A stretch of DNA of 38,718 nt. Source: Catenulisporales bacterium. GTDB lineage: Bacteria; Actinomycetota; Actinomycetes; Streptomycetales; Catenulisporaceae. A program made the translations under genes and the position numbers. Of the stretch, positions 12,652 through 32,429 are shown piece by piece. The notes beneath the pieces are model-generated. The model was not told where the DNA came from. It did not search any database and saw nothing but the letters and a program-made list of their open reading frames with translations. The DNA lies in NCBI GenBank assembly GCA_019510485.1, contig JAEKKI010000141.1, positions 1 through 38,718 on the forward strand. Reading direction: 5' to 3'. Every line of letters begins with the position of its first letter. Positions within the stretch are counted from its first letter, which is position 1.

Positions 12652-13126
12652 GTTGGGGTTTTCAAGCCGAGTGGTGGGGTTTCAGTCAACAGCGCGTCCG
12701 GACACTGCGGGTTTTGTCCCGTACGCGGGCCGCGGTGGCGAGGGTGGTTGCGTTGCTCTGGCCATCGGGGTCGGGCCCGTGCTACTCACGCTAGGCGTGT
12801 TGGTGCGGCCGGTGCGCTCCGACGCACGGACCCGACCCCGATGGCACCAGGAATGGGTCTGTGGTCCAGCCACGTCGGTGGCCGCCGGCTGGGTACGCGA
12901 CCGGTGCCGGGCCTCTGGCTGGTGCATGGTGGGTCGGGTCCGTCGGCGGCGGCCCTTCAGCGTGACCGCGGTTTGGATGCCCGACTCGCCGCCGGTGACG
13001 GGCCCGGCCCGCCGTGCCAAAGAAACGCAAGTACCAGCACAACCTCCAGCCGCGTACGGGACGAAACCCGCAGTGTCCGGACGCGCTGTTGACTGAAAAC
13101 CCCACCACACGGGGTTGAAACCCAGC
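12652..13126. repeat. 475-bp palindromic repeat element
   Basis: Outer arms 12652-12728 and 13050-13126 are inverted copies. Within 12671-12728 versus 13050-13108 only one base differs and one base is inserted. Weaker inverted similarity continues inward to about 12780 and 12997, giving arms near 130 bp. Both arms can be read to give the same peptide segment (PDTAGFVPYA), simply because they are copies. The element fills the whole gap between the M20 gene start (12633) and the kinase gene stop (13139). No transposase, no target duplication seen. It is either a mobile palindromic element or two copies of a dispersed repeat inserted head to head. Confidence 0.75.
12762..12844. repeat. Internal hairpin of the palindromic element
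   Basis: The 21-base arms 12762-12782 and 12824-12844 are complementary except at one position, around a 41-base loop. They sit in the left half only, next to the inner limit of the long arm. The stem is strong enough to fold as RNA or as single-stranded DNA and may act as a terminator for rightward or leftward transcription. Confidence 0.65.
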
Positions 13127-13138
13127 CACCCAGACTCC

Positions 13139-16039
13139 TTAGACCGACGACCGGCGATCGTCCTCTGCACTCAGCTCCTCCAGCGTCCGCCGCCGCTCGT
13201 CCACCAGCTTCTTCAGCTTCTCGGCCATCGCGTCCAGCCGCTTCATCGCCGCCGGCATCCCGGCCTCCTGGCCCGGGGCGAACACGATCCGGCCGAGCTC
13301 GGATTCGCGGGCGGCCGTGAGCTCCTCGCGGATCCGGTCGAGCCGGTTGCGGACGGACCCGAGCGCCTGCAACAGGTGGTCTTTCAGCTTTCTGCGTTCC
13401 CCGGGGTCCTTCGGCGGCACCGCGGCCGTGATCTCCTCACCGTCCGAGGTCCACTCCCGGGACAGCTGCGCCAGCAGGCCGATGTCGCCGCGCGAGTACG
13501 CGTCGTTCACGCGGGCCATGAAGACCTCGCGGACCTGCCGGTCGCCCTCGTCGGCGGCCAGGTCGGGGTGGCAGCTGCGGGCAAGTTTGCGGTACATGCG
13601 CTTGGCCTCGCCGGTGGGGGCCGGACGCGGCGGTTCGGCGCGTTTGGCGCGCACCTTCTCCTCGTCGGCCTGGCGGGCCGACTCCTGGGCGCGCTCGCGG
13701 GCGGCCTCGGCGTCCCGGCGGTCGTCCGCGCGGCCGCTGCGCTCGGCGAGGATCTCGGCGATACCGGCCTCGATCCCGTCGAGTTCGGCCAGCAGCGGCG
13801 CGAACATCCGGGCGTGCGCGCGGCCGAAGACCGCCAGCAGGTTGCGCACCTCGGCGAGCTCGGCCTCGGCCTGCGACAGCTCGTCGGCCCGCCCGGCGAG
13901 CTCCCGCTCCAGGTCGGCGATCTCCGGGTCCACCCATAACTCGGCCTCGGCCGGGCCGCCGTACTGACTCTTGTAGTCATAGGGGCCGACCTTCGACACC
14001 ACGCGCATCACGAGCGTCTCGTCGTCGACCCACACCGCGCGGATCTTCCCCTCGCCGAGCACCTCGACGGCTTCCGGGCCGCGCGCGGTGAGCTGCACGC
14101 GCGCGGCCAGCTTCTCCTGCCCGAGCGCGCCCGGTTCGACCTCCACACAGATGTGGAACGTGCGCTTCTCCTGGCCCCACGCCCCGGTCGGGAACGCGAC
14201 CGTGCGGACGCCGTCGACGCCTATGCGCGTGTCGGTGAGGTCCCGCAACACCGGATCGACCTGCTTGACATACCGGATCACCGCCCCGGCCGGTGTCCAC
14301 AAGCTGAGTTCGACGTCCGCGACCCGCTTGGCGGCGGCCGCGGCCGTCACCTCGCGCACGGCCGACGGCAACGCCTGGGGCTCGGCGACCAGGGCGACGG
14401 TGCCGGACAGCTGCTCGGACACCAGCCGCATCTCGTGCACGTCCCAGTCGTCGCCCAAGCCCAGGCAGTCGGCGGTGAACAGCCCCGCGCACGCCCGCGC
14501 CGTCATCGCCAGCCGCGACGGATGAAGTCCCTCGTCGCGGCCGTTCACGACGATGACGGCGTGCCGCACCGGACCCGAGCCCAGCGCGAAGATCCGGGCC
14601 GCGCGGCCCAGCCACAGCCCTATCTCCCGGCCGCCGTAGGCGGTGAGCCGGTCGACGGCGGCCTTCGCCGCGGCGCGCGAGGCGGCGGTGACCGGTTCGG
14701 TGCCGCCGTCCTCGGGATAGACGGCCTGGCTGTCGGCGCGGCCGGCGATCACGGCGAAGCGCGCGCCGTCGGGCAGTTCGTCGATGCCCGCGCACAACGC
14801 GGCTTTGACGCCCTCCAGCCGCCCGGGCTCGGCCAGCGACCGTGAACAGTCGGCGATGAAGACCACTGAGGGCGGTCCGTCGGCGGTCGCGGCGGATGCC
14901 GGCTTGGCCGGCGGGTAGCTGCGATCGACGCGTCGGGCGGTGACAGAGCCCTGAGCCGGACCTTTCGGCGCCGCCACGGTCGTGCTGACCGACACGATCG
15001 CGTGCACTTCGCGGCCGCCGGCGGCCAGGTACTCGTTCTGGTCGACGCCGATCACGGTTCGCAGCGCGTTGATGGTCTCCACGGCGTTGGAGGTCCGCGC
15101 GCTGCGGCCGGCCGCGATGTCGTCGTTGCGCAGCCGCTCGTTGACGAACGCGAAGTGCTCGACCCATTCCACGCCGAGCTGCACGTCCTGGGCCAGCGAG
15201 GGCAGCGGCGACCCGGACGCCTCGACGGTCGGCGGCGGCGTCCAGTCACCGACCAGCGCGAAGGCGGCGGCGACGTCGGGCCGCGTCGCAGGATCCTTGT
15301 CCAGCAGCCGGGTGATCAGCGCCGTGAGCCGGCCGCCGCGATGCAGCGGAGCCGGCTGCCCGGCCACCACCGAGCCGATGACGTCGGCACGGAACGCCGG
15401 AACCCCTTCCACCGCCTCGTAGAGCGTCGCCCCGAGGGAGAACATGTCGCCGACGGCGCCGGCGTCCTGGGAGATGACGCGCTCGGGCGCGACGTAGCCG
15501 GGCGATCCGATGAAGGTCCCGGTCCGGGTGACGCGCTGGTCGTCGTCGCGCACCGCTATGCCGAAGTCGGCGAGCAACGCGGTGCCGTCGGCAGCCAGCA
15601 ACACGTTGCCGGGCTTCACATCGCGGTGCACGATGCCGGCCGCATGCGCCGCCGCCAGGGCCCGCAGGAGGTCGCGCGCCAGGGCGACGGCGTCGTTCTC
15701 GGCCAGCGGTCCGCCGCGCGCCAGCCGGTCGGCCAGACTCTGGCCCTTGACCAGCTGCATGACGATCCACGGCGCCCCGGATTCGATGTGGACGTCGTGC
15801 ACTGTGACGATGTTGGGGCAGTCCCGCAGCCGCGCGGTGTTGCGGGCTTCCCGGGCGGCTCGTGCCACGCGCTCGGCGGCCAGCGGTCCCTTGCTGTCGG
15901 GCGGGAGCAGCACCTGCTTGACCGCGACGTCGACCCCGAGGTCCCTGTCGTAGGCCTGCCATACCTGCCCGAAAGCACCCGAACCGAGGCGGTCCACCAG
16001 CCGGTAGCGTCCGCCGATCACCCGCCCTGGCTCGGTCAC
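13139..16039 (-). CDS. Ser/Thr protein kinase - vWA - coiled coil - J-like domain fusion
   Basis: 966 aa. Residues 10-266 are a complete Hanks-type kinase: Gly loop GSGAFG 19-24, K41, HRD 138-140, DFG 158-160, APE 184-186. Residues about 391-560 are a von Willebrand A domain with a DCSRS (DxSxS) metal site at 397-401. Residues 570-700 are beta-rich (the usual partner of this vWA type). A charged coiled coil spans 704-805. Residues 808-850 resemble a J domain carrying HPD at 824-826 (YRKLARSCHPDL...ARVNDAYSRGD). Another coiled coil covers 878-957. No membrane helix, so a cytoplasmic scaffold-kinase, reminiscent of TerY-type kinase/vWA stress modules but in one chain. GTG 16039 lies 6 bases after TAGGCT: probably leaderless. 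It ends 13 bases from the palindromic element. Confidence 0.88.
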   Translation of the reverse strand: MTEPGRVIGGRYRLVDRLGSGAFGQVWQAYDRDLGVDVAVKQVLLPPDSKGPLAAERVARAAREARNTARLRDCPNIVTVHDVHIESGAPWIVMQLVKGQSLADRLARGGPLAENDAVALARDLLRALAAAHAAGIVHRDVKPGNVLLAADGTALLADFGIAVRDDDQRVTRTGTFIGSPGYVAPERVISQDAGAVGDMFSLGATLYEAVEGVPAFRADVIGSVVAGQPAPLHRGGRLTALITRLLDKDPATRPDVAAAFALVGDWTPPPTVEASGSPLPSLAQDVQLGVEWVEHFAFVNERLRNDDIAAGRSARTSNAVETINALRTVIGVDQNEYLAAGGREVHAIVSVSTTVAAPKGPAQGSVTARRVDRSYPPAKPASAATADGPPSVVFIADCSRSLAEPGRLEGVKAALCAGIDELPDGARFAVIAGRADSQAVYPEDGGTEPVTAASRAAAKAAVDRLTAYGGREIGLWLGRAARIFALGSGPVRHAVIVVNGRDEGLHPSRLAMTARACAGLFTADCLGLGDDWDVHEMRLVSEQLSGTVALVAEPQALPSAVREVTAAAAAKRVADVELSLWTPAGAVIRYVKQVDPVLRDLTDTRIGVDGVRTVAFPTGAWGQEKRTFHICVEVEPGALGQEKLAARVQLTARGPEAVEVLGEGKIRAVWVDDETLVMRVVSKVGPYDYKSQYGGPAEAELWVDPEIADLERELAGRADELSQAEAELAEVRNLLAVFGRAHARMFAPLLAELDGIEAGIAEILAERSGRADDRRDAEAARERAQESARQADEEKVRAKRAEPPRPAPTGEAKRMYRKLARSCHPDLAADEGDRQVREVFMARVNDAYSRGDIGLLAQLSREWTSDGEEITAAVPPKDPGERRKLKDHLLQALGSVRNRLDRIREELTAARESELGRIVFAPGQEAGMPAAMKRLDAMAEKLKKLVDERRRTLEELSAEDDRRSSV

Positions 16040-16457
16040 GCGAAAAGCCTACGGGGAGCGGCGCCCGCGCGCGAAGAGGCCGGCGCGTTCTTGGGGAGTT
16101 CTCCATGCCGGCGCCGGCCGGGACGCCGGCGGTGTCCGTGAGTGTCGTATGCCTGCGCACCCCTTACCGGGGAACATATCCCCGGAATTTGCGTTACGCT
16201 CGAAGCCGGATCGAATCCCCCGACGCGCCGTTCGGCCCGCAGGTCGATCCTTCGCGATCGGCCGCCGCGCGCGGGTGCGTACCCCCTCCGCATCCCGCGC
16301 GCGGCGGCCCACGCCGGTCTCCCCAGTTGCCAGAGTCCTGTTCTTGGCAGGGTTCTGTTTCTTGGCGGAGCCTCGTGGATTCGGGCGATTCGGCGCGAAA
16401 CAGTAGCTGGCTAGGATGGTCCGATCCCGTTCCCGCCCCACCGTCGCAGGAGGAACC
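16040..16457. other. 418-bp divergent intergenic region
   Basis: Separates the kinase-vWA-J gene from a TetR gene. Minus strand: TAGGCT (16051-16046) is the likely -10 of the kinase gene. Plus strand: TAGGAT (16412-16417) is a likely -10 of the TetR gene, with AGGAGG before its GTG. TTCTTGGCAG at 16341-16350 recurs as TTCTTGGCGG at 16359-16368, an 18-base-pitch direct repeat. Nothing else is recognised; the GC-rich open frames here are not credible genes. Confidence 0.45.
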
Positions 16458-30489: not shown

Positions 30490-30578
30490 GGCGGGCACGG
30501 GCCGTGTAGGTGTTCATCCCCTGGTCATTTGCTGCGAACCACTGGTCGAAGCCGTCAGGGCCGTGGCAGCGTGGAGGG

Positions 30579-32429
30579 GTGGGCGATTCAGGGGAGTGGG
30601 CCGCACCCGGCTATACGGAGATCCGGGAACTGGGGTCGGGGGCGACCGGGCGGGTGGTGTTGGCGCGGCACGGTGCGAGCGGCCGGCTGGTCGCGGTGAA
30701 GTACCTGGCGGCGCGGCTCGTGGGGGACACGGCGTTCGCATTGCGCTTCCGGCGCGAGGCAGAGTTGATGGCGCTGGTGCGGGATCCGAACGTGGTGGAG
30801 GTGTATGAGCTCGCCGTCGCCTCGGACGGGCGCGGGGTCGCGCTGGTGATGGAGGCGGTCGAGGGGCCGAGTCTGCGAAGGCTGCTCGGGAACGGCCACG
30901 GATCGCCGGAGGCGGCGCTGGCGTTGCTGCGCGGATCGTTGCTGGGGCTGGCCGCCGCGCACGATAAGGGCGTCGTGCACCGGGATTACAAGCCGGACAA
31001 CGTGCTGGTCGATGCTCGCGGCCAGAGCAAGCTGACCGACTTCGGCATCGCCTCGCCGGCGGGCCAGGCCGGTGCGCCGGCCGAGGGCACGCCGGCGTAT
31101 ATGGCCCCTGAGCAGTGGAACGGCTATCCGCCGGCGCCGGCGTCGGACATGTATTCGGCGGCGGTGGTGTTCTACGAGTGCCTGACCGGTGTGCGGCCGT
31201 TCCGTTCGCAGACGCTCGCCGAGCTGCGGACGTTGCACGAGACGGCGCCGCCCCCGTTGGAGCGGGTGCCGCCGCCGGTGCGCGGGTTGTTGGAGCGTGG
31301 ACTGGCGAAGTATCCGCAGCAGCGGTATGCGGATGTGCGGTCGTTCCTGGCGGATGTCGAATCGGCGGCGGTCGCGGGGTACGGGCCGCACTGGCGCGAG
31401 CGGGCTGTCAGGGATCTGGCTTATGCCGCTGCCGGTATGGTCGCGGCGTTGCCGATACTGGCCTTGGCCGCCGGGACGACGTCCGGGGCGGTCGGGCTCG
31501 CCGGGGCGTCGGGTGCGGCAGGTGCCGCCGGTGCTGCCGGAGCCGCCGGAGCCGCCGGTGGAGGCGCTGCCGGTGCCGGCGCGGCAGGACTCGGACACGC
31601 AGCCGTTCAAGCTGGAGCACACGGCGCTGTCGCCGCCGGTCAAGCCGGAGGTCAGGCAGCGGCGCACGCCGCCGGCCAGGGCGCGGCCCAAGCCGCCGTC
31701 CACGGCTCCGCCGCCGCCGGTCAGTTCGCCGGCAGCGGCGCGGCCCACACCCAGCAGGTCATCGACCACACCCGCCGCGCCGCCACATGGTCCCGACGCG
31801 GCGCGAAGCTGCTGCACGGCAAGGCGCTCGCGGCGACCGTCGCCACGGTCACCGTCGCCGCTGCCGGAACCACGGTCGCGGTGGCGACGGCGGGCGGCTC
31901 CGATGATCCGAGGACCCCCGCGGCCGTGGCCCACGCTGAGGAGTCCGCACTGCACGCCTTCGGCTCGGGCAACAACGGCGCCATGTGCCACGCGATGAGC
32001 TCGGCGATGCTGAAGAGGTACGGCGGCCAGGCCGGCTGTGTGACACTCATGTCCAGCGCCACCGGCTTCCTCAGCTCGCTGGGCGGATCGCTGGACGATC
32101 AGCGCAAGGCCGCGCGCTCCGCCACCGTCGACCCCGCCAAGGTGGTCATCACCGGTGACACCGCCCTGGTGCCGGGCTCGGCGGTGCACTGGAAGCTCGG
32201 CAGCATCACGGTGGCCGGGCAGACCATCGACCTCACGTCCAATGACGTCACCTGGGTCAGGGAGAACGGCCACTGGCTGATCGGGATGCCGAAGAACCTG
32301 CCGTCGGTGCTGCCGACCGACCTCTTTCCCAGCGGCGGCATCCCCACCGATCTGTTCCCCAGCGACCTGCCGACCAGCTTCCCGACGGACATTCTCGGCA
32401 ACCTGCCCGGCGGCTCGTCGACGAGCTGA
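30579..32429 (+). CDS. Membrane Ser/Thr protein kinase with C-terminal sensor-like domain
   Basis: 616 aa from GTG 30579 (GTG 30510 is also possible). Complete kinase at 10-262: GSGATG 19-24, K41, HRD 134-136, DFG 154-156, APE 176-178. Hydrophobic stretches at 281-306 and 416-438 may be membrane helices. Between them lies an extreme Ala/Gly/Gln/His-rich region (306-400). Residues 450-570 look like an NTF2/DUF4878-like sensor with C470 and C487; a Pro-rich tail repeats PTDLFPS. Oddity: codons at about 31510-31650 have about half A/T third positions, while the +1 frame there is normal for this genome and reads as a proline-rich linker. This suggests a compensated frameshift or sequencing error. 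The permease genes follow within 80 bases. Confidence 0.85.
   Translation: MGDSGEWAAPGYTEIRELGSGATGRVVLARHGASGRLVAVKYLAARLVGDTAFALRFRREAELMALVRDPNVVEVYELAVASDGRGVALVMEAVEGPSLRRLLGNGHGSPEAALALLRGSLLGLAAAHDKGVVHRDYKPDNVLVDARGQSKLTDFGIASPAGQAGAPAEGTPAYMAPEQWNGYPPAPASDMYSAAVVFYECLTGVRPFRSQTLAELRTLHETAPPPLERVPPPVRGLLERGLAKYPQQRYADVRSFLADVESAAVAGYGPHWRERAVRDLAYAAAGMVAALPILALAAGTTSGAVGLAGASGAAGAAGAAGAAGAAGGGAAGAGAAGLGHAAVQAGAHGAVAAGQAGGQAAAHAAGQGAAQAAVHGSAAAGQFAGSGAAHTQQVIDHTRRAATWSRRGAKLLHGKALAATVATVTVAAAGTTVAVATAGGSDDPRTPAAVAHAEESALHAFGSGNNGAMCHAMSSAMLKRYGGQAGCVTLMSSATGFLSSLGGSLDDQRKAARSATVDPAKVVITGDTALVPGSAVHWKLGSITVAGQTIDLTSNDVTWVRENGHWLIGMPKNLPSVLPTDLFPSGGIPTDLFPSDLPTSFPTDILGNLPGGSSTS

Follow-up and report, generated by a model that had tools for sequence, protein, structure and literature searches.

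How a protein kinase, a von Willebrand factor A (vWA) module and a J-like helical tail came to lie on a single polypeptide, and what such a chain might do, is the question raised by one gene in a stretch of 38,718 nucleotides from a soil bacterium of the Catenulisporales (contig JAEKKI010000141.1 of assembly GCA_019510485.1), here called the window. The gene (13139..16039, minus strand, as are all its features below) starts with GTG and encodes 966 residues in the order kinase, linker, vWA with beta-sandwich, coiled coil, J-like segment and second coiled coil. An earlier first-pass annotation of the sequence had already described this reading frame as a single chain with motifs at K41, HRD 138, DFG 158, DCSRS 397 and HPD 824, and the frame, the joining of the three parts and every motif position were borne out. 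Pfam reported Pkinase (E 3.8e-42, residues 12-257), VWA_3 (3.9e-10, residues 392-548) and DnaJ (9e-4, residues 809-849). We consider the protein, with a probability of about 0.45, to be a genus-specific and vertically kept Ser/Thr kinase scaffold that joins normally separate parts, with an HPD hairpin that would couple phosphorylation to DnaK.

The window genome groups with Catenulispora, and the full chain was found in all 10 Catenulispora genomes searched, the window included. Compared over the C-terminal 683 residues, the nine others matched the window at full length with 81-86% identity, and the five loci taken from named records belong to three named Catenulispora species and two Catenulispora metagenome-assembled genomes. 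With the same 683 residues as query, a full-length match was absent from four genomes of other genera in the family. None of the 70 non-Catenulispora genomes among the 80 searched for the order spans the whole chain in the matches listed, and in a class-level search of 118 genomes, 20 had any match and the window alone had the full chain; these absences hold at the sensitivity of a search that scored a limited number of candidates per genome. All 10 orthologues agree in chain layout, catalytic residues, HPD and GTG start. Ratios of nonsynonymous to synonymous substitution (dN/dS; method of Nei and Gojobori, NG86, eight orthologue pairs, module by module) were 0.03-0.29 for the kinase, 0.16-0.44 for the linker, 0.06-0.30 for the vWA and sandwich, 0.01-0.18 for the first coil, 0.00-0.20 for the J segment and 0.00-0.23 for the second coil. 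Every module stays below 0.45 and, as read from these alignments, purifying selection acts on all parts of the fused gene.

The N-terminal part is a Hanks-type Ser/Thr kinase domain (residues 12-257, 15269..16006), which scored 144.9 bits against a Pkinase cut-off of 31.7 and keeps K41, HRD138 and DFG158 in all orthologues. No stretch of 19 residues in the whole protein exceeds a mean hydropathy of 1.47, so that the protein is apparently cytoplasmic, in agreement with the location proposed earlier.

The middle part (residues 331-690, 13970..15049) is a vWA and beta-sandwich module homologous to residues 34-379 of the solved chain 4FX5_A (phmmer E 1.9e-87), with VWA_3 at residues 392-548. All 10 Catenulispora genomes encode a stand-alone relative, and so do 66 of the 70 further genomes of the order at E <= 1e-50; at this threshold it was absent from G015, G025, G039 and G043, of which G025 has a partial match. 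The stand-alone vWA protein of genome G005 is identical to 4FX5_A across all 440 residues of the alignment; 4FX5 is presumably a Catenulispora acidiphila protein, and G005 would then be that species. In a tree calculated without duplicates and without the partial rows L042, L092, L093 and L094, the fused vWA modules grouped together (100/100), set off by a stem of 1.58 changes per column, and their sister group was the stand-alone vWA of Catenulispora (99/97). Because of this sister relation to stand-alone proteins of the same genus on a long stem, the fused vWA most likely arose by duplication within the Catenulispora lineage, followed by fast change.

The presumed parent belongs to a known kind of locus. 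In the complete Catenulispora genome L062, a run of genes encodes a protein for which Pfam gave nothing above cut-off and which we take for GlnX by its position, an SBP_bac_3 protein (GlnH-like), a 412-residue protein without match, PknG (rubredoxin, kinase and TPR), PP2C, the VWA_3 plus VWA_3_C protein and an FHA protein, with double zinc-ribbon matches below cut-off in the PP2C and FHA proteins. A similar run was read by eye at four further loci (L065, L067, L070 and L072), where BLAST had matched the vWA only, plus one kinase in L072. In the accessible parts of two reports (PMC9769921, PMC6069109), PknG, GlnH and GlnX are described as a signalling set of Corynebacterium, and PknG of mycobacteria as being regulated by a solute-binding protein. 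The stand-alone protein differs from the fused one in its intact metal site, its VWA_3_C tail and the lack of a kinase and a J-like part. It also adjoins PP2C, PknG and FHA genes, whereas in the window, of whose 32 called genes 27 were scanned, no PknG, PP2C or FHA family (kinase domains apart) and no second vWA was reported. The earlier statement that no phosphatase or Ter gene lies nearby thus holds for these 27 genes. The same genome nevertheless encodes the stand-alone parent of the vWA, along with an FHA-like gene, at a contig start outside the window (L075), and PP2C stands at that locus in the complete relative. The comparison with TerY-type systems in the first-pass annotation was partly right, as the vWA derives from a kinase-PP2C-vWA kind of system, but its nearest parent is the VWA_3 plus VWA_3_C protein of the PknG/PP2C/FHA locus and not TerY.

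The metal ion-dependent adhesion site (MIDAS) of the fused copy is degenerate. Motif 1 (residues 397-401, 14837..14851) is kept as DCSRS, where DCSGS is usual, in the alignment of orthologues and stand-alone rows. The MIDAS Thr is replaced by Arg471 (14627..14629; GGR, not GGT) and the last Asp by Asn499 (14543..14545; VNG, not TDG) in all 18 fused rows from 10 genomes. All 59 stand-alone rows that have letters at both positions keep the Thr of GGT and the Asp of TDG; these rows correspond to 54 genes, five of them with a second copy, and remain from 62 rows after L042, L092 and L094, which have no MIDAS letters. Motif 1 is shifted or gapped in the alignment for L059, L099 and L100, and row counts for the MIDAS and the J segment leave out L002-L008 (kinase paralogues and the second locus of the genome's own vWA). 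A DxSxS motif had been taken as a sign of an intact, metal-dependent vWA. The motif itself stands, but since the Thr and the last Asp are lost in 10 of 10 orthologues and kept in all 59 stand-alone rows, metal dependence is not supported, and we infer that metal binding was lost by the fused vWA. The C-terminal part of the parent was apparently exchanged as well: VWA_3_C, present in the stand-alone protein of L062, was not among the Pfam matches of the fused protein up to E 1, and the match to 4FX5 ends ahead of this region. Erosion of a MIDAS has a precedent, as in some CoCoNuT operons a second vWA without the middle MIDAS Thr has been described in the available part of PMC11090510. The fused module would be a clean case of a vWA metal site that decayed after duplication and fusion, and the effect of this loss is open to direct study because the sister protein has a solved structure.

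The C-terminal tail starts with long helices or a coiled coil (residues 705-800, 13640..13927; modelled helices 705-768 and 771-800), followed by the J-like segment (residues 806-865, 13445..13624) with the HPD (residues 824-826, 13562..13570) and by second helices or a coiled coil (residues 879-965, 13145..13405; helices 879-912 and 928-965). The tail was modelled by AlphaFold2 from six close sequences, with a mean predicted local distance difference test (pLDDT) score of 81 and a predicted template modelling score (pTM) of 0.55. In the model, the HPD loop lies within helices 810-823, 831-850 and 853-865 and is flanked by the long helices. The model speaks for the proposal that residues 808-850 form a J-type hairpin, as it places the HPD loop between two helices, which may be packed antiparallel. 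All 51 J rows read have the HPD; this number includes duplicates, and 33 of the rows are stand-alone. A profile of the tail was built from 13 members (six fused and seven stand-alone), all of which matched Pfam DnaJ at E <= 0.1 (best 0.00013). Searched against PDB sequences it gave a best E of 0.0051, and the names among the 24 matches listed were mostly DnaJ or HscB. Among the residues invariant in the 13 aligned members are Y127, R128, L130, R132, H135, P136, D137 and L138 as well as F151, R154, V155, N156, A158 and Y159 (module numbering, to which 689 is added for the full protein), by which the HPD is flanked by invariant Y-R-x-L-x-R and R-V-N-x-A-Y positions.

For residues 700-960 there is a stand-alone homologue, 265-325 residues long at the seven loci aligned, which shares the HPD and its flanking positions but is encoded by a separate gene. 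The window gene covers positions 6-266 of the 270 in the tail profile, which itself includes the window gene, and fused tails and stand-alone members are 27-40% identical in pairwise blastp. The profile found a counterpart in every one of the 80 genomes of the order: the 70 that are not Catenulispora gave exactly one match apiece, and nine Catenulispora genomes gave two, fused and stand-alone. The window's own genome gave three rows: one is the fused gene, and the other two are parts of a stand-alone gene (L074, 7786-8627 on contig C87) that is divided between two frames, in reality or by a draft error; relatives have intact copies. Among 197 genomes of the class, all 16 matches fell within the order. 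Among 149 genomes of the phylum there were 11, of which four came from the order and three were weak and partial; the remaining four, from families f54 and f50, covered most of the profile (E 5e-20 to 1.5e-28). In three of these four the gene was callable (L142, L144 and L145; 272-279 residues, other classes of the phylum) and contained the HPD, and the L142 protein has no Pfam family at E <= 0.001. As these distant homologues match most of the profile, the J-like module is, at sequence level, part of a wider, patchy stand-alone family. No name or assigned function was found in the literature for the order-wide stand-alone J-like coiled-coil protein.

At a Streptomyces-type locus (L066, 7139-9826; the type is a reading of family f2), the stand-alone J-like gene adjoins rhodanese and DUF2252 genes by Pfam, and look-alike neighbours were seen by eye in L068, L069, L071 and L076. 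Also by eye, fhaA-, fhaB- and pstP-like genes lie within a few kb in L069, L071 and L076, and an fhaA-like gene farther away in L066.

From these relationships, the assembly of the fused chain can be proposed with high confidence. It would have combined three parts that are otherwise encoded by separate genes: a PknB-like kinase domain, a second copy of the vWA-beta-sandwich protein from the PknG/PP2C/FHA locus, in which the metal site degenerated and the VWA_3_C tail was replaced, and a tail related to the J-like coiled-coil protein that the order has in single copy. How such a chain would work is more tentative. The coils may form a dimer or scaffold, and the metal-free vWA-sandwich together with the coils might serve as a docking surface that holds a partner or the kinase itself. 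The kinase would then phosphorylate whatever is held, and the HPD hairpin would recruit DnaK, by which the phosphorylated complex could be remodelled or released. Phosphorylation and chaperone action would in this way be coupled on one chain. For the step that involves DnaK we see a real but slightly less than even chance.

Several points weigh against this reading, and most of them concern the tail. Its DnaJ score was 19.7 bits for the whole protein and 22.4 for the module, below the Pfam cut-off of 27.8, and the match begins at profile position 14 and leaves helix I of a standard J domain unmatched; for these two reasons the tail is called J-like here and is not filed as a J-domain protein. 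No J-domain entry was among the 50 matches listed by each of two fold searches. In a J tree without duplicate loci and identical rows, the fused tails formed a clade of their own (100/100) with a very long stem (3.02) and did not join the stand-alone proteins of Catenulispora; this tree, for which the program warned of long branches meeting, gives no firm source for the tail. The stand-alone vWA and J-like genes both persist in Catenulispora and are not near each other in the loci read, and the fusion therefore need not act in the stand-alone pathways. Moreover, the structure model of the vWA was poor (pLDDT 48.5), and the predicted kinase activity is drawn solely from motifs. Some of these observations would suit a kinase scaffold without chaperone coupling, in which the J-like segment is a helical adapter or dimer piece and the HPD serves structure or another partner. 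The low DnaJ score, the unmatched helix I and the fold searches favour such a scaffold, as do the long helices that make up most of the modelled module, and we regard it as a plausible competitor with about one chance in three. Against it stands that HPD, the part of a J domain that acts on Hsp70, is retained in every J row read and in the three callable distant homologues of other classes. The first-pass annotation had proposed instead that a metal-dependent vWA binds a partner, which is phosphorylated and handed to Hsp70. The retained DCSRS and the homology to 4FX5 speak for this model, which is nonetheless improbable given the replaced Thr and Asp of the MIDAS in all orthologues and their retention in the stand-alone rows.

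A role in an anti-phage or TerY-P conflict system was suggested by the top PADLOC matches (PD-T4-6, 1.4e-64; mad6, 3e-54) and by the TerY-P kinase-vWA-PP2C triads that accompany some restriction systems, as described in the accessible part of PMC11090510. However, the best 25 of 35 PADLOC rows are confined to the kinase domain (residues 4-263), NCBIfam MAD6 scored 152 bits against a cut-off of 460, and no PP2C, second vWA or nuclease family was reported in the scanned window genes. The gene is also kept throughout the genus, with the same downstream genes in four of the five relatives whose contigs reach far enough, and membership in such a system appears very unlikely. An artificial fusion by frame errors or a false assembly join might be suspected in a draft genome of 326 contigs that is 77% complete. 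All 10 Catenulispora orthologues show the same layout, start and upstream element, with low dN/dS over all modules, and a check of homologues revealed no frame error. This candidate was ruled out by the orthologues, and its probability is negligible.

The fusion hints that separate versions of its parts may cooperate in related bacteria. It supplies a concrete list of candidate partners for the J-like coiled-coil protein, namely the vWA protein, a Hanks kinase and DnaK. By Rosetta stone logic, the order-wide J-like protein, the PknG-locus vWA and a Hanks kinase would be one complex that links Ser/Thr phosphorylation to DnaK, of which Catenulispora fused a second, metal-independent copy; this extension is speculative and rather unlikely.

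Compared with known systems, the protein resembles the TerY-P triad (TerY-like vWA, PP2C and a kinase with zinc ribbon or OB-fold) in the pairing of a kinase with a vWA, as far as the available text of PMC11090510 describes it. It differs in being one fused chain with a J-like tail, for which Pfam reports no zinc ribbon, and in that neither PP2C nor a second vWA stands alongside among the window genes scanned. PpkA of Pseudomonas aeruginosa likewise carries an N-terminal kinase and a vWA in one chain; it is set apart by its description, since the accessible part of PMC1262709 gives about 300 residues of unknown function between the two and names no J-like part. With DnaJ and other J-domain co-chaperones, the tail shares the pattern of helix, HPD and helix, but it scores below the cut-off, lacks a match to helix I and is set between long helices. 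In its accessible part, PMC7159879 describes fusions of DnaJ domains with FNIII proteins as well as gene groups for kinase, PP2C and vWA, and the kinase-vWA-J chain is not among them; such gene groups are also described in the part of PMC11090510 that was available. Kinase-vWA chains and kinase-PP2C-vWA gene groups are thus already known, and no description of a J-like addition in the same chain was found in the literature searched, a search outside which most subscription papers lie.

Between the kinase and the vWA, a linker segment of 24 residues (284-307, 15119..15190) is identical across all orthologues. Among kinase rows at E <= 1e-60 from the 80 genomes of the order, no listed non-fused row extends beyond residue 294. 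Two weaker rows in the window's own genome reach residues 316 (contig C237) and 382 (C39), and the linker motif was not seen in the C39 protein. The nearest relative of the fused kinase domain (56-59% identity) shares a contig with the stand-alone vWA gene in five genomes (G005, G006, G011, G012 and G013), at a distance of about 27-33 kb, and this pair may have been the source of the fused parts. The window also contains, at 30510-32429, another gene for a Hanks-type kinase, and the gene after it matches an FtsX-like permease.

Upstream of the gene, the element TCCCCGTAGGCT (16046..16057) lies 6-7 nucleotides ahead of the GTG and is conserved in the 10 of 10 upstream regions read. It fits the -10 box of a leaderless transcript, and the identity and short distance lend support to the leaderless start that had been proposed; a scan with the sigma-70 consensus found no site. 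The palindromic element said to border the gene exists as an imperfect inverted repeat of about 470 bp (12656-13123), with arms at 12676-12780 and 12998-13102 that are 81% complementary. A second copy, 87% identical, lies on contig C316 of the same genome. It looks like a small mobile repeat, and nothing was found that ties it to the gene.

Downstream in the window follow genes for an M20 peptidase, a small coil protein, 6-phosphogluconate dehydrogenase and an FBP_C protein, which are shared by four of the five relatives with sufficient contig (L064, L009, L010 and L013, not L011), and none is an obvious partner. In 7 of the 10 Catenulispora genomes, not in the window, the fused gene is preceded on its own strand, at about 50-550 bp, by a gene for a CsoR-like repressor (Trns_repr_metal, 1.2e-23; L064, 7487-7762). 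The repressor keeps two Cys, seemingly without the His of the metal-sensor motif, which is likewise missing in persulfide sensors. Together with the rhodanese neighbour of the stand-alone J-like gene, it allows the loose idea of a link to sulfur.

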